DNA of 64,000 nt from Aquimarina algiphila (GTDB lineage: Bacteria; Bacteroidota; Bacteroidia; Flavobacteriales; Flavobacteriaceae). Each line of letters begins with the position of its first letter. The stretch's first letter is position 1. The stretch covers positions 1 through 64,000 of the forward strand of contig NZ_VLNR01000011.1 in NCBI RefSeq assembly GCF_007489275.1, in the 5' to 3' direction. The notes beneath the pieces were generated by a model. It was not told the origin of the DNA and searched no databases. It saw nothing but the letters and a program-made list of their open reading frames with translations. The position numbers and the translations under genes are program-made. This document shows, in pieces, positions 233 to 53,912 of the stretch.

Positions 233-1297
233 ATGTATTTTGAAGGAATTATAACCATCGATCCGTCTCAAATTACCAAAATAAATTATGTTAAGCCAAC
301 TAAAGCTTTTAGAAAATTTTTACATAGCATAACATTAGGCTCTGTATCTGACAAAGAAGAACGTGAAACATTTACCGCAGTAGCTATTCTTCAACAAATT
401 AATGCTTGCTTTAGAAATATCGGAGTAACTAATGTTATTAAAATTTCTCACGATGAGATTGATTTTTATCATGATAAAGAAGGGAAAGAAAATGATTTAA
501 AACTGGCTTTAGATAAATATGAAATAGAGGTCAATGAAGCGATGTCAACTCATTTTTCTAAGCTTACTTTGGTTTTAGAACATAAAGATGAAACCTTTAA
601 ATATCTTTTTGAAATCAACATTAATAGAGATCATAAAATTGGAGTATATCCAATTGAAATTAAAGTTTCAGGACTTCTTAATAGGTTTGCAAAAAACAAT
701 CCTAAAGACGAAATCCAAAAAGTAGTAGAATATCAAGAAGTATTTGATCTATTTAAAAAACAAAAAAGTGAAGAATTTGAACGTTTTCTTGATGAAATAA
801 AATTCGAACTTAAGCGGCAGATAGAAACAGATGATATTAAAATTTTCACAAAAACAAAATACGTTCTTCCTTCAAAGACAATTAACAAAGAAGGTCCTTT
901 GCCAAAAAATCCAGAAAGAGGGGGTGTTTATGGAGGGTATTATGGTTTTAATGATTATCTATACTACAACTTGATTTGGTCTGATGTAATGCATCACTGC
1001 GGAAGTACAATTACTCATTCTCATTTTGAAAATGAAAACGGAGAGTTTCTAGGATATGCAGAGGAAATCAATGCTCAGGATTCTATTTTCAATAGTGATT
1101 TAAATGATCAAGAATCAGTAAATCAAACGCTTGAAGAAGACCCAATAATAGTAAACGAAGAGCCTGTTGAAGAATCTTCTGGCTGGTTTGATTCAGATAA
1201 CTGGAGTTTTTTTGATTCTGATGATAGTTCCTCTGGTTGTAGTTCTTGTTCTTCTTGTTCTTCTTGTTCGAGTTGTTCTTCATGCGGAGGAGATTAG
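233..1297 (+). CDS. Hypothetical protein with acidic, Cys-rich C-terminal tail
   Basis: A 354-residue soluble-looking protein with no signal peptide or clear membrane segment. I do not recognise the family. Residues 1-210 are mixed alpha/beta, with lysine- and glutamate-rich helices. A Gly/Tyr-rich stretch (GGVYGGYYGFNDYLYYN, about 231-247) precedes a short segment containing MHHCGS and THSHF, whose His and Cys could bind a metal. The last ~55 residues are acidic and end in five SSC repeats after a GC (six cysteines), then GGD. It is the first intact gene of the flotillin cluster and is followed 52 bp later by the OB-fold membrane protein, so it is probably co-transcribed. The function is unknown. 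Confidence 0.8.
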   Translation: MYFEGIITIDPSQITKINYVKPTKAFRKFLHSITLGSVSDKEERETFTAVAILQQINACFRNIGVTNVIKISHDEIDFYHDKEGKENDLKLALDKYEIEVNEAMSTHFSKLTLVLEHKDETFKYLFEININRDHKIGVYPIEIKVSGLLNRFAKNNPKDEIQKVVEYQEVFDLFKKQKSEEFERFLDEIKFELKRQIETDDIKIFTKTKYVLPSKTINKEGPLPKNPERGGVYGGYYGFNDYLYYNLIWSDVMHHCGSTITHSHFENENGEFLGYAEEINAQDSIFNSDLNDQESVNQTLEEDPIIVNEEPVEESSGWFDSDNWSFFDSDDSSSGCSSCSSCSSCSSCSSCGGD

Positions 1298-14756: not shown

Positions 14757-15776
14757 ATGCATCTCATTTTTTCTGAACACCTAGACTTTTCTGTAAATAG
14801 AGTCATAGATTGGTTATCCTACTATAACCAACAGTATGATAAATACATAGGGCATTCAACTGTAGATGATCATTTTGCTTTTAATGACAAAATGATTACT
14901 ATGAGTTTTGGTGGTACCGATAAAAAAGAATCATTTATTGTTAAAAATGACAACCAAGAAATTGATTTCGATTCTATATGGTTTAGAAGGCCTAGTAGTG
15001 ATATCAGTCCATTTTTATTAGATTTTGAGCATAAAGCAACCTATCCCAAAGATTTTCTAGAATACACTATACAAAAAAGAATTAAGGTCTTTTGGGATTT
15101 TCTTGGATACAAATTAAAAGAAAAACTACATCAAGGTTCTTTTAATACCACAGGATTAAACAAGCCCATTGTTCTACAAGAAGCTCAAAATCTAGGACTA
15201 ACCATACCCAAAACATTACTTACTAATGATAAAGAAGAACTCAAGAAATTCTTTGAGCAATGCAACAAAAAAATCATTACCAAATCAATAGATGGATTGA
15301 TCCCACAGCATAAAGAAAAAATTACAGACAACAACAAACACCTGTTAGCCTATCAACTGACTACTCTTATAGACAATATAGAAAATACTCCTGCAACCTT
15401 TGCTCCATCTCTATTTCAGGAATGTATTGATAAAGAGTATGAGATCAGGACCATATTTCTTAATGGTACATTATATTCTGCTTGTATATTTAGCCAGCTT
15501 AATGAGCAAACCAAAATAGACATGCGTAACAGGGATGCAAACCACCCTACCCGATATATACCTTATCAATTAGATAACAAAATAGAAACCAGTATAATCA
15601 AACTCATGAATACCTTAAATCTTGATTATGGTGCCATTGATATTATAAAAGGGTTGGATGGACACTACTATTTTTTAGAAATTAATCCCGTGGGGCAATA
15701 TGGGGACGTATCTTTACAATGCAATTACTATCTCAATAAAAAAATTGCAGAACACTTAATTAATGTGCAGCCTTGA
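14757..15776 (+). CDS. gwsG: Grasp-with-spasm ATP-grasp peptide maturase
   Basis: A 339-residue ATP-grasp enzyme of the graspetide ligase group. The N-terminal pre-grasp domain contains VIDWLSYYN and SIWFRRPSSD. The ATP-binding part has KIITKSIDG and FQECIDKEYEIRTIF, and the metal-binding end is DYGAIDIIKGLDGHYYFLEINPVGQY, where E and N of LEIN are the usual Mg ligands. It phosphorylates side-chain carboxylates of the precursor and forms ester or amide crosslinks. Its setting between precursors and a SPASM protein identifies it as the GwsG type. The stop is followed 1 bp later by a small unknown gene. Motifs look complete. Confidence 0.9.
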   Translation: MHLIFSEHLDFSVNRVIDWLSYYNQQYDKYIGHSTVDDHFAFNDKMITMSFGGTDKKESFIVKNDNQEIDFDSIWFRRPSSDISPFLLDFEHKATYPKDFLEYTIQKRIKVFWDFLGYKLKEKLHQGSFNTTGLNKPIVLQEAQNLGLTIPKTLLTNDKEELKKFFEQCNKKIITKSIDGLIPQHKEKITDNNKHLLAYQLTTLIDNIENTPATFAPSLFQECIDKEYEIRTIFLNGTLYSACIFSQLNEQTKIDMRNRDANHPTRYIPYQLDNKIETSIIKLMNTLNLDYGAIDIIKGLDGHYYFLEINPVGQYGDVSLQCNYYLNKKIAEHLINVQP

Positions 15777-15777
15777 T

Positions 15778-15984
15778 ATGAAAGACGAATCAAAGAAACA
15801 TAAAGACTTTTTTAATATTCCAGAACATACCTCTATTCCTTTTGACTTACACTATATCTGTGTGTCTGAAAAAGAAAACACAGACGATATTAAAAAGTTT
15901 CATTACATGAAAAAATACAAATCAAAAGGTGTTATATTGGATTTTTATAAAAAAAACTCTAATATTCTAGAGATTGATATATGA
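15778..15984 (+). CDS. Small hypothetical protein between gwsG and gwsS
   Basis: A 68-residue protein starting MKDESKKHKDFF. I choose the ATG at 15778 because it starts just after the gwsG stop, while the upstream ATG at 15763 would overlap that gene. It is Lys/Asp-rich with FDLHYICVSEK and HYMKKYKSKGVILDFYKK. No domain is recognised and there is no membrane segment. It overlaps gwsS by 4 bp (ATGA), so it is made with the maturases. It could be a leader-binding or scaffold subunit, which is speculation. Confidence 0.7.
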   Translation: MKDESKKHKDFFNIPEHTSIPFDLHYICVSEKENTDDIKKFHYMKKYKSKGVILDFYKKNSNILEIDI

Positions 15985-17000
15985 GTACACAAGAAACTAA
16001 TTTATTTTTTCTATTATTTCCTGCATGTATACCGATAAAAGGTGATCAATCCAGTATCATCATGGATCTTGATAGAGCATCTTATTTAGAAATTCCAAAT
16101 TTATTATTTGACATACTCTCTAACGATCTTCAGAAAAAAGAGGTTAAAGAAATTAAGAGAATATATAAAAATGAGTATGATGACGGTATCGACAAATATT
16201 TTAACTTTTTGGCAGATAACGAATATGGTTTTTTCACCAAAACCCCTTCTCCTTTTAGAAAACCGAGTACCGAGTTTTATTCACCATATAAAATAATCTC
16301 ATCAATACTAGAAATCGATAAAGATTCTAATTATAATATGTCAGAAGTTTTTAGGCAACTTGATACCCTATCATGTCAACTAATCCAAATCAGGATATAC
16401 GATAGCTGCAATTTAGAAGAACTAGCTGTACATGTAGCAGTATTAAATGAAAGTTCTGTAAGAACAATTGAAATCTACATTCCTTATAATGATGACATTT
16501 TAGAAAAAGATCTGTTACATTTTATTCATCAATTTGATCGTGTACATCTTATCATCTATTCTTCTAAGATAAACAAGAAAGTTAAGATTTCGAGAAATTC
16601 AACACAAAAAATCATTTACACCTCAAATAAATTAACAAAACAATCTAAAGAGATATATGCTTTAAAATCATTTACTATTAGTCATCAAATGTATTATGAA
16701 TCTTTACATTATAATACTGGATTATTTAGAAAAACATGTATCGACAGCAAAGGTAATATCAAGAACTATCTTTCTCATCAGGAAATATTCGGAAATGTAG
16801 CTCAAAATACTATTGAAGAAGTTGTTACCAAAGAGGTTTTTCAAGAAAAATATATACTACATAATGACCTAATCGAAAAATGTAAAGATTGCCAGTTTAG
16901 GCATATGTGTCTAAGCAATTCTGACATAAAATTTGACAATAATAAATATTACAAAGTAGACACTTGTGGTTTTGATCCATATACTAATTCCTGGAACTAA
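15981..17000 (+). CDS. gwsS: Grasp-with-spasm SPASM-domain peptide maturase
   Basis: A 339-residue protein. The C-terminus carries a SPASM-type cysteine set C301-x2-C304-x5-C310 and C329, in CKDCQFRHMC and DTCGFDP. The radical-SAM CxxxCxxC motif is absent from the N-terminal and middle parts, as I recall for this family. The middle has a Rossmann-like half-barrel rhythm (VHVAVLNESSVRTIEIYIPY, FDRVHLIIYSSKI). It is expected to help GwsG recognise or modify the precursor. Its exact chemistry is not established. Confidence 0.88.
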   Translation: MSTQETNLFFLLFPACIPIKGDQSSIIMDLDRASYLEIPNLLFDILSNDLQKKEVKEIKRIYKNEYDDGIDKYFNFLADNEYGFFTKTPSPFRKPSTEFYSPYKIISSILEIDKDSNYNMSEVFRQLDTLSCQLIQIRIYDSCNLEELAVHVAVLNESSVRTIEIYIPYNDDILEKDLLHFIHQFDRVHLIIYSSKINKKVKISRNSTQKIIYTSNKLTKQSKEIYALKSFTISHQMYYESLHYNTGLFRKTCIDSKGNIKNYLSHQEIFGNVAQNTIEEVVTKEVFQEKYILHNDLIEKCKDCQFRHMCLSNSDIKFDNNKYYKVDTCGFDPYTNSWN

Positions 17001-17008
17001 TCTAGTAC

Positions 17009-19204
17009 ATGTCAAAAAAGTTCAAACATTACAGACAATTAAACATGATGGATTGCGGTGCCACGTGCATACGTATGATTGCAAAACATTATGGAAAGAA
17101 TATTTCAATTAAAAAATTGCATGAGTTTACTGACACAACGAGAGTAGGTGTTAATATGCCCATGCTAGCAGAAGCAGCAGATAAAATCGGTTTTAGAACC
17201 ATTGGTGTTAAAATAGACGCTGTGACTTTTTTTAATGAAGTACCTTTACCTTGCATAACATACTGGAACAAAGATCATTTTGTAGTAGTTTATAAGGTGA
17301 CCAAACATTCAATTTATGTTGCAAACCCAGCCTCTACAACCATTCGTTATAGCAAAAAAGAATTTATCCAACATTGGATTGGTATTGATGCCAACGAAAA
17401 AACAAAAGAAGGATTAGCACTTATATTTCAGCCAACTCCAAGACTACATGAGACAGAAGAAGATATTGAGGATAACAAACAAAACTTCAGGTATCTATTT
17501 AAATACTTATTTGTACACAAAAAGTTTTTAGCACAATTAGTAATAGGAGTTATTACAGGAAGTGTAATTAGTCTTATTTTACCATTTTTAACCCAAAGTA
17601 TTGTCGATATTGGGATTCGAAATCAAAATATAAATTTTATATATCTTGTATTATTAGCTCAAATATCTCTATTCATTGGTAAAATAAGTATCGAGATTAT
17701 CAGGGGATGGATTTTATTGCACCTAAGTACCAGAATTAGCATATCCCTTATTTCTGATTTTTTCATAAAATTGATGAATCTTCCTATATACTTTTTTGAC
17801 ACCAAACAAACGGGAGACATTTTAGAACGCGTAAGTGATCATAAAAGAATTGAGAATTTGTTAACCAATTCACCATTATCTGCGCTCCTTGCCATTATTA
17901 ATATTGTTGTTTTTGGGTCTATTCTGGCATATTATAGTCTAACTATATTTGGTGTTTTCTTTATTGGCAGTATATTATATTTTTTATGGATCTTACTTTT
18001 TTTCAAAAAAAGAAAAATCATAGATACCAGACATTTCTATTTAATGAGTCATGAAAATGAAAAAATCATAGAACTTATTAATGGAATGCAGGAAATTAAA
18101 CTACATAATGCAGAAAGAGTAAAACGTTGGGGATGGGAGTTTATAAAAGTAAAGTTATTTAAAGTTGCTATTAAACGACTTTCACTCGAACAACTTATCA
18201 ATATCGGCACCTCCCTAATTAATGAACTTAAAAATATAATCGTTGTATTTGTATCAGCAAAATTAGTGATTCAAGGTGATATTACTCTGGGGATGATGCT
18301 GTCTATAATGTATATAATAGGGCAACTTAATGGCCCATTACAAGAAATGCTAAAGAACAGTTATTCTGTACAAGATGCCAAAATAGCTTTAGAACGATTA
18401 TATGAAATTCATAAACAACAGGATGAAATAAACATTAATCAAGAAAAAATAGATGTTACAGATATTAATCATGATTTACAAATTGAAAATTTATCTTTTA
18501 CATATCCCGGTAAAAAAGAGCCAGTTCTCAAAAACATAAACCTTACTATCCCGACCAATAAAACCACTGCAATTGTTGGGGTAAGCGGAAGTGGAAAAAC
18601 AACCTTAATAAAATTATTATTAAAATTTTATAATCCAAAAACCGGAAGAATATTATTAAAAGAGCAAAGTTTGGATCATATTTCTCAAAATTCCTGGAGA
18701 GATAAGTGCGGCGTAGTCATGCAAGATGGTTATATTTTTAATGATACCATTGCCAAAAACATTGCTATAGGACAGCAAGATATAGATAAGAAAAAACTAG
18801 CTCAGGCTGTTGAGATCGCAAATATCAAAAAATTCATAGAACAACTACCACAAACGTATAACACAAAAATCGGTAATGATGGAGTTGGATTAAGTGGTGG
18901 AGAAAAGCAGAGAATCTTAATCGCAAGAGCAGTATACAAAAATCCTGATCTTATGTTTTTTGATGAGGCGACCAGTGCCCTAGACACTAACAATGAACGT
19001 GTTATCGTAAAAAATTTGAATCTTTTTTTCCAAAACAAAACAGTTGTCATTATTGCACATCGGTTAAGCACTGTGAAAAATGCTGATCAAATTATCGTCC
19101 TGGATAAAGGGGAAGTAGCAGAAATTGGAAATCATGAACAACTCACCAAAATGAGAGGAAAATATTATAACTTGGTAAAAAACCAATTAGAACTTGGAGT
19201 CTAG
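17009..19204 (+). CDS. Peptidase C39-containing ABC exporter
   Basis: A 731-residue bacteriocin-type exporter. Residues 1-140 are a C39 peptidase with Q10 and C16 (QLNMMDCGATC), H90 (KDHFVVVY) and N106 (VANPAS) where Asp is usual. Residues about 165-450 hold the six-helix membrane domain, and about 480-731 the ATPase with Walker A GVSGSGKTT, signature LSGGEKQR and Walker B LMFFDEATSALD. It removes leaders and exports the mature peptide across the inner membrane. It is 8 bp after gwsS and is the last gene of the RiPP operon. No HlyD-type or outer membrane partner is adjacent. Confidence 0.93.
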   Translation: MSKKFKHYRQLNMMDCGATCIRMIAKHYGKNISIKKLHEFTDTTRVGVNMPMLAEAADKIGFRTIGVKIDAVTFFNEVPLPCITYWNKDHFVVVYKVTKHSIYVANPASTTIRYSKKEFIQHWIGIDANEKTKEGLALIFQPTPRLHETEEDIEDNKQNFRYLFKYLFVHKKFLAQLVIGVITGSVISLILPFLTQSIVDIGIRNQNINFIYLVLLAQISLFIGKISIEIIRGWILLHLSTRISISLISDFFIKLMNLPIYFFDTKQTGDILERVSDHKRIENLLTNSPLSALLAIINIVVFGSILAYYSLTIFGVFFIGSILYFLWILLFFKKRKIIDTRHFYLMSHENEKIIELINGMQEIKLHNAERVKRWGWEFIKVKLFKVAIKRLSLEQLINIGTSLINELKNIIVVFVSAKLVIQGDITLGMMLSIMYIIGQLNGPLQEMLKNSYSVQDAKIALERLYEIHKQQDEININQEKIDVTDINHDLQIENLSFTYPGKKEPVLKNINLTIPTNKTTAIVGVSGSGKTTLIKLLLKFYNPKTGRILLKEQSLDHISQNSWRDKCGVVMQDGYIFNDTIAKNIAIGQQDIDKKKLAQAVEIANIKKFIEQLPQTYNTKIGNDGVGLSGGEKQRILIARAVYKNPDLMFFDEATSALDTNNERVIVKNLNLFFQNKTVVIIAHRLSTVKNADQIIVLDKGEVAEIGNHEQLTKMRGKYYNLVKNQLELGV

Positions 19205-51315: not shown

Positions 51316-52905
51316 ATGAAAAATAATATCGAAAAAATTGTTGAAACCGTTTTGGTTCAAAATCGAATAGGCAACTATGAAAAAAAAGACTTAGAACTTC
51401 AGTTACAAATACACCCTAATTACCCAAGTTTTCAATCGATTACTGATACTCTAGATTATTTTGATATCGATAATATTGCGGTAGAAGTTCCTCTAGATGC
51501 TTTGGATCAACTACCAAAAAGTTTTGTAACTCTGGTTAAAACGGCAGAATCTTCTGAAGAAATTGTCACTGCTATTAAAAAAAATCAAAATATAGAAATT
51601 AAGCACAGTAGCTTAAAGAAAAAGAAATTTACTCTTGAAGAATTTAAAGAAATTTGGATTCCCAAGGTTATTGCTGTAGAATACAATTCAAAACAAAGTC
51701 TTTTATCCAATGGGTCGTTTCTTCAGAATCTTCTTGCAATAACATTAATCGCCGGTTTAGTTTTATTAGCTATCAGTAGAGTCTGGACAATTGATCAAAT
51801 TCTTTTTCTGATTGTATCTCTTGTAGGTGTGACCTTTAGTTTTTTTGCACTTCGCGAAAGTTTAGGTATTCAATCTCAAACCATTCATCAGTTTTGTACT
51901 TCTGTTGGGAACACAAATTGTGGAGATGTCATAAATAATAACAGTGGTAAGCTCTTCAAGAATTTTTCACTTGCTGATGCTGGCATTGTATTTTTTAGCG
52001 CACTTACACTATATCAAATTTTTTATGGTTTCACCAGTGTATTGCTTATTCCAGCACTTGCAGGAATTCCATTTGTATTATATTCTATCTATTCTCAAGC
52101 TTTTATTATAAAAAAATGGTGTGCAATATGCCTTGCTATGGTAGCTGTTTCTATTGGATTAACAATAATAGCATTACGAAGCCTTCAGTTTGATATTGAT
52201 ATTTCTCAAATCTCAGGGTTTTTAATTGTTACTACATTATTTACTTCAATTTATTTATTTGCAAAGGAAAAAATGGTGGAAAACAAGACTTTTAAAGGTG
52301 ACAATTTAAAGTTAAATCACTTCAAAAGAGATAGTCAGATTTTTAACCACTTACTCAGTCTTTCAGAAAAAATAGAAGATAATTCGACTATAGAAAACGA
52401 AATCGTATTAGGTAATCCAAATGCTCCATTTAAAATCATTAGTCTTACCAACCCTATGTGTGGATATTGTAAAGATGCGTTCGAAGCTTACACTCGTACT
52501 TTAAAGGCTATGGGAGATCAATTGCAGATCATTATTCGTTTAAATGTAAAAACTGATGATCTAGAAAATAAAGCAACGCAAATAGCCTTGATTCTTTTTG
52601 ACATCTACCAAAACAAAGGAGCTGATGAATTTATAATAGCATACAACAATTGGTTTGCCGACAGAACACATAGCAAATGGATAAAAAAATATGGTCTTCC
52701 TGCAAAGAATCCAGGCTATATATCAGTTTTAGACAAACAATCAGAATGGGCAGAAAAAAACAACCTTTACTATACTCCCGCTTCACTAATAAATGACACA
52801 ATTTATCCTAAAAAGTATAGCTATTCAGAGTTTTTTCATTTTATGAATATTATGATCGAAAATCATAATGATGTTATCGAAAACCAAGAACCTGTTGAAA
52901 TTTAA
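51316..52905 (+). CDS. C39-like/VKOR/thioredoxin fusion protein
   Basis: A 529-residue membrane protein in three parts. Residues 1-135 resemble a C39 peptidase-like domain (LQIHPNYPSFQSITDTLDYF) without the catalytic Cys. Residues 140-320 are a vitamin K epoxide reductase-type domain with the loop cysteines C194 and C202 and the redox motif W268-C-A-I-C272. Residues about 350-529 form a DsbA-like thioredoxin domain with C382-G-Y-C385. It would oxidise cysteines in the periplasm and pass electrons to quinone. Three Cys-rich peptides with GG-type leaders follow at once, so it probably folds them. The substrate link is inference from adjacency. Confidence 0.85.
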   Translation: MKNNIEKIVETVLVQNRIGNYEKKDLELQLQIHPNYPSFQSITDTLDYFDIDNIAVEVPLDALDQLPKSFVTLVKTAESSEEIVTAIKKNQNIEIKHSSLKKKKFTLEEFKEIWIPKVIAVEYNSKQSLLSNGSFLQNLLAITLIAGLVLLAISRVWTIDQILFLIVSLVGVTFSFFALRESLGIQSQTIHQFCTSVGNTNCGDVINNNSGKLFKNFSLADAGIVFFSALTLYQIFYGFTSVLLIPALAGIPFVLYSIYSQAFIIKKWCAICLAMVAVSIGLTIIALRSLQFDIDISQISGFLIVTTLFTSIYLFAKEKMVENKTFKGDNLKLNHFKRDSQIFNHLLSLSEKIEDNSTIENEIVLGNPNAPFKIISLTNPMCGYCKDAFEAYTRTLKAMGDQLQIIIRLNVKTDDLENKATQIALILFDIYQNKGADEFIIAYNNWFADRTHSKWIKKYGLPAKNPGYISVLDKQSEWAEKNNLYYTPASLINDTIYPKKYSYSEFFHFMNIMIENHNDVIENQEPVEI

Positions 52906-52953
52906 TATTTAATGTAGTGTATTCAATATAGTTTAACTTAAAATCAATATAAT

Positions 52954-53160
52954 ATGTTACCAAAAATTTTGAGATTAAAAAATGTTAGACAACTTAATAA
53001 AAACCAACAACGTACCATTAAAGGAGGATTCACCCTTCCTGGATCAGATGATTGTGGATGTATTGTAATGGGACCCAGAGGTTTCTTAGAAATTATAGCT
53101 GTATCATGCAGTAGCACTTGCCCAGACGGGACCGATCCCATTGGAGGATTAGGTTTTTGA
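52954..53160 (+). CDS. Cys-containing peptide with double-glycine leader (P1)
   Basis: A 68-residue peptide. The leader MLPKILRLKNVRQLNKNQQR runs to TIKGG (residues 1-25), of the bacteriocin/ComC type with conserved Leu, basic residues and GG. The core has CGC and two further Cys (SCSSTC), and a Gly-rich end (GGLGF). It is the first of three peptide genes after the VKOR fusion. It is expected to be exported, cleaved after GG and disulfide-bonded. No modification enzyme is nearby. Confidence 0.8.
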   Translation: MLPKILRLKNVRQLNKNQQRTIKGGFTLPGSDDCGCIVMGPRGFLEIIAVSCSSTCPDGTDPIGGLGF

Positions 53161-53262
53161 CCAAAACCAAATAAGATATTGTAAGATGAACCATAGCATG
53201 TCATTTTGAATATGATGATGATTGAATTTTGATAAATATGTTAATTCTTAAAACCTAAAATT

Positions 53263-53430
53263 ATGAAAAGAATCAAAAAATTACATGGAGCCAAAGTGCT
53301 TTCAAAAAAAGATCAAAGTACTATTATTGGCAATGGTCTTGTTATCTGCTTGGTATTCTGCCCTACATATTGTGTATGTATAGGTGATCGATGTGAATAT
53401 CGCGATGGAAGAAATTGCTCTGCTCTATAA
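53263..53430 (+). CDS. Cys-rich peptide with GG-like leader (P2)
   Basis: A 55-residue peptide too short for usual gene callers. The leader KLHGAKVLSKKDQSTIIGNG is like those of its neighbours, but the cleavage pair is NG instead of GG. The core is 30 residues with six Cys (29, 33, 37, 39, 44, 52), which could form three disulfides. Its position between P1 and P3, and the shared KKDQ leader motif with P3, support it as a real gene. Confidence 0.78.
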   Translation: MKRIKKLHGAKVLSKKDQSTIIGNGLVICLVFCPTYCVCIGDRCEYRDGRNCSAL

Positions 53431-53468
53431 AATTATTAGTTGAATCATAATCTTAAAACCAAAAACAG

Positions 53469-53672
53469 ATGCTAAAGAAAATTTTAAATTTAACAGATAC
53501 CAAGAAAATTGAAAAAAAAGATCAAAAATCAATTTCTGGAGGCCGGATTCCTACATTAAACAAATGTTATCCAAGTAGTGATCCAGAATGTTGTGGAACT
53601 GCTCAGTGGCAATGTGGTATTGGACCTCACAGTGGTGGGTTATTCAACGGTTATTCTTGTGACTGTTTTTAG
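53469..53672 (+). CDS. Cys-rich peptide with double-glycine leader (P3)
   Basis: A 67-residue peptide with leader MLKKILNLTDTKKIEKKDQK then SISGG (residues 1-25) and a 42-residue core with six Cys (KC, ECC, QC, SC, DC). The core has YPSSDPECCGTAQWQCGIG, a knottin- or defensin-like spacing. A strong terminator follows 19 bp after the stop, which closes the peptide operon. Confidence 0.82.
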   Translation: MLKKILNLTDTKKIEKKDQKSISGGRIPTLNKCYPSSDPECCGTAQWQCGIGPHSGGLFNGYSCDCF

Positions 53673-53690
53673 AACTAAATTAAAATTAAA

Positions 53691-53727
53691 AAAGTCCAAC
53701 TCTTATTCTTATTAAAGTTGGACTTTT
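53691..53727 (+). terminator. Rho-independent terminator of the second peptide operon
   Basis: AAAGTCCAACT (53691-53701) pairs with AGTTGGACTTT (53716-53726) and is followed by TTTTTT. It lies directly after P3. Confidence 0.88.
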
Positions 53728-53750: not shown

Positions 53751-53912
53751 TTAGAGAATAGCTTCAAGCCAGCAAGGTATACTAGATCTTACAGGTTTTG
53801 TATCAGTTATTGTAGGACAACTTTTAGTGAACTCTTCTCCTCCCTTAATTGATGACATGTTATTTAATTTTGTTACCCTAAATTTTTCAATTCCTAATTT
53901 TGATTTTTTCAT
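53751..53912 (-). CDS. Orphan precursor-like peptide, class I lanthipeptide-type leader
   Basis: A 53-residue peptide on the opposite strand. It starts MKKSKLGIEKFRVTKLNNMS and reaches SIKGG at residue 25. The K-x-FxxxKLNNMxxIxGG leader is the pattern of Bacteroidota lanthipeptide-type natural product precursors. The core (EEFTKSCPTITDTKPVRSSI, then PCWLEAIL) has two Cys and several Ser/Thr that could be dehydrated, but no LanB/LanC is in this window. It may be an orphan substrate for enzymes elsewhere or a remnant. Confidence 0.6.
   Translation of the reverse strand: MKKSKLGIEKFRVTKLNNMSSIKGGEEFTKSCPTITDTKPVRSSIPCWLEAIL

Follow-up and report, generated by a model that had tools for sequence, protein, structure and literature searches.

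What does a protein that joins a C39-like peptidase domain to a VKOR-type disulfide oxidase and a thioredoxin-fold domain do in front of a row of Cys-rich peptide genes? The question is raised by a locus of the marine flavobacterium Aquimarina algiphila (genome of 7.0 Mb), located in a stretch of 64,000 nucleotides (contig NZ_VLNR01000011.1, positions 1 to 64,000; hereafter the window). A sequence-only reading had described the fusion followed by three Cys-rich peptides, and Pfam matches, open reading frames (ORFs) and leader-profile matches all bear out this description. We favor, with a probability of about 0.58, the explanation that the fusion is a dedicated leader-addressed machine for disulfide formation, and that the peptides are cross-linked prior to their release through a separate C39 exporter. 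Below, L-numbers denote loci, G-numbers genomes (G000 being that of A. algiphila itself) and C-numbers contigs of the latter.

The association of the fusion with the leader of these peptides was followed in two genome sets. Among 52 Aquimarina genomes, all 44 that carry the fusion or a paralog have leader matches, compared with none of the eight that lack the fusion (Fisher 1.3e-9); for the 46 genomes of at least 90% completeness (41 with the fusion, 5 without), the value is 7e-7. In a phylum sample of 296 genomes, the leader was detected in 17 of the 33 fusion-bearing genomes and in none of the other 263 (Fisher 6e-19). These p-values are rough and optimistic, as common descent links the genomes, so that the tests overstate independence, and as the phylum searches scored their candidates in part. 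Since the leader class was never found without the fusion in either set, the case for the fusion serving these leaders is considerably stronger. Exporters alone do not explain the link, because four fusion-less genomes (G005, G007, G035 and G036) display C39 peptidase matches yet no leader match.

The precursor peptides are a dispersed, genome-wide system, of which the window trio is a fragment. A leader profile (A2; 26 seed sequences, including the three window peptides) gave 31 matches on 21 contigs of the A. algiphila genome at E-values up to 0.05, and up to 58 matches occur in a single genome; the three-peptide locus stands, within a wider system that had been overlooked. Thirty of the 31 matches had a locus to be read, and all of these except L215 yielded a readable peptide, giving 29 peptides in 28 core clusters. 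Within the 64 kb of the window, the profile (at least 8 bits) matches the three peptides only, and in 20 control stretches from the same genus (400 kb) it matches four times, all in two stretches. The leader follows the pattern L(-12)..K(-10)..Q(-7)..[IV](-4)-x-G-G. In the 92 of 95 leaders that could be anchored, Leu or Ile occupies position -12 in all 92, Lys or Arg position -10 in 91 and Gln position -7 in 87, with Gly, Ala, Ser or Asn at -1; positions -4 and -2 are fixed by the anchor itself. In the leader bound to LahT, as an excerpt of PMC6363468 describes it, Val at -4, Leu at -7 and Leu at -12 pack in a groove, and the Gln at -7 therefore marks the present class as distinct. No Pfam or NCBIfam cut-off was reached by four window peptides or by sets of 10 and 7 others; the NCBIfam model leader_Chryseo (NF047798, cut-off 23.5 bits) gave 13.5-14.0 bits for three of 14 peptides and no match for the rest.

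The domain composition of the fusion is in line with a redox relay joined to an inactive C39-like domain. The window protein scores 57.4 bits against VKOR (cut-off 27.5) and 29.0 bits against Thioredoxin_4 (cut-off 23.2). Against Peptidase_C39 (PF03412, cut-off 22) it reaches 20.8 bits, or 23.3 bits in the genome-level search, and related fusions reach up to 42.7 bits. The VKOR redox residues Cys194, 202, 269 and 272 are invariant and, together with the score, place the protein in PF07884; across the 61 aligned family members, not one of the six Cys in the VKOR and thioredoxin parts varies. The N-terminal half behaves differently: residues 1-193 of the window fusion hold zero Cys, and alignment to five exporters shows no protease Cys in 60 of 60 fusions (one being a gap), with the protease His retained in two; the incomplete fusion L098 was omitted from the topology and C39 counts. 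The phylum loci L102-L130 yielded a fusion ORF of more than 480 aa in 27 of 29 cases, with no Cys at the protease position in 26 of these 27 (11 gaps) and the His again retained in two. A C39-like domain without its catalytic Cys had been proposed from the window alone, and the family agrees; the fusion lacks the Cys and His pair of an active Peptidase_C39 protease. Sequence matches in the PDB to a human chromatin protein and a transcription factor were regarded as chance.

The peptides would need an exporter for their release. The suggestion that the C39 exporter at 17009 in the window is the partner has to be given up, as this gene belongs to a grasp-with-spasm cluster (14757-19204), beside an ATP-grasp maturase (TIGR04192, 236 bits vs 230, equivalog) and a SPASM maturase (TIGR04193, 193 bits vs 175, equivalog). 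The fusion locus is not part of that cluster, whose maturases and exporter lie 32 kb away. The more general idea of an exporter shared from elsewhere fares better. Three further C39 exporters were found in the genome, and one of them, on contig C202, adjoins an HlyD-like gene; the exporter at 17009 is 60% identical to it. Copies of the C202 exporter at 83% identity or higher are present in 41 of the 44 fusion-bearing and none of the eight fusion-less Aquimarina genomes (Fisher 2e-7), the cut-off having been chosen post hoc, after a gap between 83% and 74% was seen. In eight genomes (G006, G008, G014, G017, G023, G029, G037 and G047), a paralogous fusion lies within ~50 nt of a C202-type exporter on the same strand. 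A DUF6734 protein is encoded directly upstream of such a paralog and exporter in L089 (7947-9230), and a protein similar to it by eye holds the same place in L090 (8439-9719).

The proximity of paralog and exporter in these eight genomes would also suit a docking role, in which the C39-like domain ties the oxidase to the exporter, peptides are oxidized in passage and the link between leader and fusion is indirect. The dead C39-like domain of HlyB, required for secretion without proteolysis according to an excerpt of PMC6363468, points the same way. Docking alone, however, does not readily account for a leader class that is tied to the fusion, while C39 peptidase matches occur without the fusion in the genomes sampled, and we consider this explanation unlikely, though worth keeping in mind.

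The membrane topology bears on the compartment in which the fusion would act. Hydropathy (61 sequences) and an AlphaFold2 model agree on six transmembrane helices. The first of these (residues 135-154 in the model, 136-155 by hydropathy) is an extra one, given that solved VKORs align only from residues 155-158 on, and ~135 residues precede it. Given this number of helices, one side of the membrane would hold the C39-like domain, the VKOR Cys loop, the CxxC motif and the DsbA-like domain together. The mean number of Lys and Arg in 60 fusions on this active side is 2.2 before helix A, 3.0 in the Cys loop, 2.0 before the CxxC and 5.1 after the last helix, compared with 0.78, 0.05 and 0.32 in the loops of the other side. 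Twenty unfused VKORs (29 loci, L131-L159, minus four fused and five with unclear starts) display 1.75 in the Cys loop, 0.25 before the CxxC and 0.90 after the last helix, with 3.05 and 1.15 in the two loops of the other side. A four-loop charge balance assigns a cytoplasmic active site to 60 of 60 and 27 of 27 fusions (87 of 87) and the opposite orientation to 18 of 20 unfused VKORs, L145 and L158 being the exceptions. The charge pattern of the fusion is the reverse of that in 18 of 20 unfused VKORs, and an orientation opposite to the usual one, with periplasmic redox sites, is predicted from it. The C39-like domain, the oxidase sites and the DsbA domain are accordingly placed in the cytoplasm by prediction, and as the functional parts share this face, the peptides would be cross-linked before export.

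With the opposite orientation, the C39-like domain, the VKOR sites and the DsbA domain would face the periplasm and oxidation would follow export, the fusion encountering uncleaved leaders or the exporter on that side. Ordinary bacterial VKOR and DsbA proteins do work in the periplasm, and the closest solved structures to the C-terminal domain include ScsC/DsbA proteins, one of them titled periplasmic. Such an arrangement would nevertheless run counter to the loop charges, which are the reverse of those in 18 of 20 unfused VKORs, and would require an N-terminal domain of ~135 residues to be translocated before the first helix. Leaders are, moreover, normally cleaved at the cytoplasmic face. 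We regard it as rather improbable.

Returning to the leader-addressed machine, we hypothesize that the inactive C39-like domain recognizes the leader of many dispersed precursors, and that leaders are held in the cytoplasm while the DsbA-like domain oxidizes Cys pairs of the bound peptide. The VKOR domain would re-oxidize the DsbA-like domain and hand the electrons to quinone. The C39 exporter encoded on C202, together with its HlyD-like partner, may then remove the leader and export the product. The proposal that the dead domain captures leaders while the oxidase makes the disulfides fits this scheme, with the amendment that the machine would act in trans for ~30 genes, probably before export. 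The complete picture, namely a cytoplasm-facing, leader-addressed relay with disulfides as the sole modification, dozens of unlinked and partly knottin-like precursors, a shared exporter and control of part of the genes by a small RNA pseudoknot in their 5' region, is more tentative and somewhat less likely than not.

The organization of fusion loci in relatives offers a further level of detail. A contig scan gave 44 loci, three at ~30% identity and 41 at 48-92%, the latter nearly all from Aquimarina or Flavobacteriaceae. The fusion keeps one chromosomal slot (18 loci listed), usually with what we take to be rodA on one side and often with a presumed permease, protease and surE on the other. 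The sequence-only reading had named a lack of conserved peptide genes beside the fusion as one point that would speak against it; 23 of 41 orthologous loci (L007-L047) carry one to seven same-strand leader genes within 3.5 kb after it, the first peptide starting 24-319 nt downstream. In L046 a leader gene is found upstream only, and 9 of 19 loci with paralogous fusions have a leader match 91-127 nt downstream. Adjacency is not required, as 17 of the 41 orthologous loci have no leader match in the flanks fetched; a truncated leader persists in L021, one of these empty loci, which suggests that cassettes are gained and lost. Upstream of the fusion, six loci encode between one and four 6-Cys peptides, with nearly identical leaders and variable cores of the spacing C-C-CC-C-C. 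In L010, L012, L013 and L014, the cassette also contains one to four tandem copies of small Cys-less peptides (leader ..TQQKIVxGG), ~480-1130 nt after the fusion, and in L012 two DUF805b RNAs (RF02914; 11662-11697 and 12135-12171) score above the gathering threshold 4-4.6 kb beyond the fusion.

As the main proof, adjacency is weaker than it looks. The profile seeds were drawn from the orthologous loci and the window, which makes the leader density there (80 matches in 545 kb at 10 bits) circular in part; this does not affect the paralog loci (21 matches in 268 kb), the control stretches (4 in 400 kb) or the genome-wide co-occurrence. The slot near rodA, kept even without peptides, and the fact that the fusion is the single VKOR (PF07884) match in its genome could point to a general oxidase serving the whole cell, with the adjacent peptides being chance neighbors or having another role. 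Such a protein would hardly be missing from 8 of 52 Aquimarina genomes (five of them at least 90% complete), exactly those without the leader, and the C39-like domain would be left unexplained; we hold this to be very unlikely.

The peptide cores are best characterized by their Cys. Core Cys counts in A. algiphila are even (2, 4, 6 or 8) in 28 of 29 peptides and 5 in the remaining one, and across own, orthologous and paralogous loci the number is even in 59 of 64 core clusters (p 9e-13). That the Cys instead bind metal or are otherwise modified, with the fusion reducing or protecting them, is the least probable alternative by our estimate, for although metal sites also favor several Cys and the peptides are known from their genes, the even counts and the VKOR/DsbA-type relay both point to pairing. 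The knottin spacing C-C-CC-C-C occurs in one A. algiphila peptide (L228) and in the 6-Cys arrays of L008, L010, L012, L013, L014 and L020, and in none of the three window peptides; an AlphaFold2 model of one array peptide (mean predicted local distance difference test, pLDDT, 59.9) is too poor for its knotted fold to be judged. Sub-threshold matches of the L229 peptide to conotoxin-type models (16.6 bits vs 25.1) were treated as common Cys spacing, not homology. That the cores are hypervariable while the leader stays fixed may point to antagonism or signaling as their role.

Several observations weigh against the leader-addressed machine. No leader match was found in 16 of the 33 fusion-bearing phylum genomes, perhaps owing to diverged leaders, and none in the fetched flanks of the 17 orthologous loci without neighboring peptides. 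The phylum searches scored part of the first candidates (4 per genome for the fusion, up to 28 for the leader), and the eight fusion-less Aquimarina genomes may be mutually related, three of them being less than 90% complete. The exporter association is imperfect on both sides: fusion-less G007 (74% and 71%) and G005 (68%, fragments) have distant copies, and fusion-bearing G003 (73%), G013 (71%) and G046 (none) have no close one. The count of a sole VKOR covers PF07884 and not DsbB-type oxidases. No C39 structure appeared among the 50 rows listed per fold search or among the PDB sequence matches, and the AlphaFold2 model has low confidence in its C39-like half (mean pLDDT 37-46 for residues 1-50; predicted template modeling score 0.44). 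The orientation follows from the positive-inside rule, which predicts topology and does not prove it. Moreover, the cytosol is reducing, and a disulfide made there must survive it. Finally, five of the 64 core clusters have odd Cys numbers.

The features of the window locus are collected in Table 1, together with the upstream element discussed below. The fusion is preceded by the presumed rodA and by a non-specific endonuclease gene of the other strand; no exporter is found among the window ORFs adjoining the fusion. The end of the locus at 53727, as first delimited, coincides with the end of the terminator-like hairpin. Of the leader ends GG or NG with 4-6 Cys read earlier, the Cys numbers hold (4, 6 and 6), and for peptide 2 the ending I-I-G-N, in register with the [IV]xG[GASN] of sibling leaders, is preferable to NG. 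The three peptides were recognized at the time and the fourth, on the opposite strand, was missed; its membership in the system is uncertain. Minus-strand GG peptides with a lysine-rich leader of another type (..SIKGG or SIRGG) also occur just after the fusion in L041 and L047. Elsewhere in the window (233-1297), a protein with a Cys-rich repeat at its end (..SSGCSSCSSCSSCSSCSSCGGD) is unrelated to the peptide system as far as seen.

Table 1. Positions of the fusion gene, its parts, the peptide genes and the upstream element (window coordinates unless a locus is named)
Feature	Position	Strand	Remark
C39-like/VKOR/DsbA-like fusion, 529 aa	51316..52905	+	Pfam matches; only VKOR (PF07884) found in genome
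C39-like domain, residues 20-124, without catalytic Cys/His; conserved H-P-x-Y-P-S at residues 33-38	51373..51687	+	
Extra transmembrane segment A, residues 136-155, ahead of first VKOR helix	51721..51780	+	
VKOR domain, Cys194/Cys202 and Cys269/Cys272	51802..52173	+	
DsbA/ScsC-like thioredoxin domain, Cys382/Cys385	52393..52833	+	
Precursor peptide 1, leader end KGG, 4 core Cys; core cluster of 6 members	52954..53160	+	
Precursor peptide 2, leader end IIGN, 6 Cys; homologue in L011	53263..53430	+	
Precursor peptide 3, leader end SGG, 6 Cys; homologues in L016 and L017	53469..53672	+	
Terminator-like hairpin (53690-53700 with 53717-53727), then T run	53690..53727	+	Read from sequence
Fourth GG-leader peptide, other leader type, 2 Cys	53751..53912	-	ORF
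Upstream elements, alignment A4	L211 1436-1477, L223 1438-1479, L048 3458-3499, L104 3339-3380 and 59 other places		

Many leader genes of related loci, and eight in the A. algiphila genome, are preceded by a conserved element. It consists, in this order, of AGACA, the 5' arm, TGTCT, a stretch rich in A and the 3' arm, and the distance from TGTCT to the ATG is mostly 40-52 nt. Pairing of the two arms and of AGACA with TGTCT would interleave as in an H-type pseudoknot, so that the element may be called pseudoknot-like. In alignment A4, pairing is found in 93.9% of cells vs 85.9% in shuffles, a count biased by the selection of members for their arm stem. Less subject to this, 21 unselected upstream regions carry the exact core at -38 to -56, and in 19 of these five or more of the 6 arm pairs form; when arms are swapped between genes, 1000 trials average 9.8 such regions and never exceed 16. 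Of the AGACA/TGTCT-type pairs, 16 of the 21 form all five. A looser core (8 of 9 letters) occurs in 97 of 200 regions; as shuffled regions average 48, only the pairing tests count for this form, with arms pairing in 65 vs a mean of 36 and the other pair in 65 vs 5. A covariance model (150 of 4585 candidates scored) gave 11 places in the A. algiphila genome at E-values up to 1, eight coinciding with leader genes and three with no leader gene read after them. Rfam gave no match at the elements of seven loci up to an E-value of 5, and at one element only far sub-threshold matches. In L095, L097 and L098, the same element precedes GG peptides of still other leader types beside fusion paralogs.

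The pseudoknot-like element is absent upstream of the three window peptides. Two of these display a CTTAAAACC box just before the ATG, and a CTTAAAACCT box is found at 53247-53256 and 53452-53461. The latter stands 16-17 nt before the ATG in 8 of 29 A. algiphila leader genes (9-10 of 10 letters), compared with a mean of 0.085 in shuffles.

Among known systems, bacteroidetocin regions are the nearest in make-up. Bacteroidetocins (class IIf, from Bacteroidales) are described in an excerpt of PMC6671954 as having the peptide, a five-helix membrane protein, an oxidoreductase and an exporter in one region. As far as that excerpt goes, they share with the present peptides a double-glycine leader, a Cys-containing core, a peptidase/ATP-binding cassette (ABC) exporter and, usually, a thiol oxidoreductase. 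Here, in contrast, the peptides are dispersed, the likely exporter is encoded at another place and the oxidase carries an inactive C39-like domain; with no exporter beside the fusion, the window does not hold a class IIf-type locus. The Synechococcus VKOR-DsbA protein (4nv2/4nv5) likewise combines a VKOR with a thioredoxin fold, four VKOR Cys and a CxxC, but has neither the extra helix nor the C39-like domain in front. The fusion also differs from 18 of the 20 unfused VKORs, a set that does not include the Synechococcus protein, in its reversed charges, which imply the opposite membrane orientation. The VKOR of Aeropyrum pernix reportedly makes disulfides in two compartments (Hibender et al. 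are said to have found this in 2017) and would be an earlier case of a VKOR at work in a second compartment; we know of no C39-like domain or dedicated peptide substrates for it.

Products of the double-glycine substrates of Prochlorococcus MIT9313 are known as prochlorosins and carry lanthionines. In that strain, 30 such substrates for ribosomally synthesized and post-translationally modified peptides are given in the excerpt of PMC6363468. The present system resembles the prochlorosin type, as far as that source describes it, in having ~30 precursors in one genome with one leader type and varied cores, and differs in its predicted disulfide product and in its enzyme, a membrane oxidase. From the same excerpt, the C39-like domain of HlyB has the C39 fold without protease activity and is thought to bind substrate; there it is part of an ABC exporter, whereas here it is fused to an oxidase. 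Our literature search found no paper on a C39-like/VKOR/DsbA fusion with peptides, although such searches can miss papers, and the main text of a VKOR phylogeny paper (PMC4555120) has no mention of 'C39' or 'fusion'.

If proven, a cytoplasmic, leader-guided disulfide step would be a new kind of system. A dedicated bacterial enzyme would then read a leader and make disulfides within the cell, although this step normally falls to the envelope. This would give a function to a domain fusion that 33 of the 296 phylum genomes sampled carry, and would open a large store of hypervariable mini-proteins. It would also suggest a route to the production of disulfide-rich peptides in the bacterial cytoplasm.

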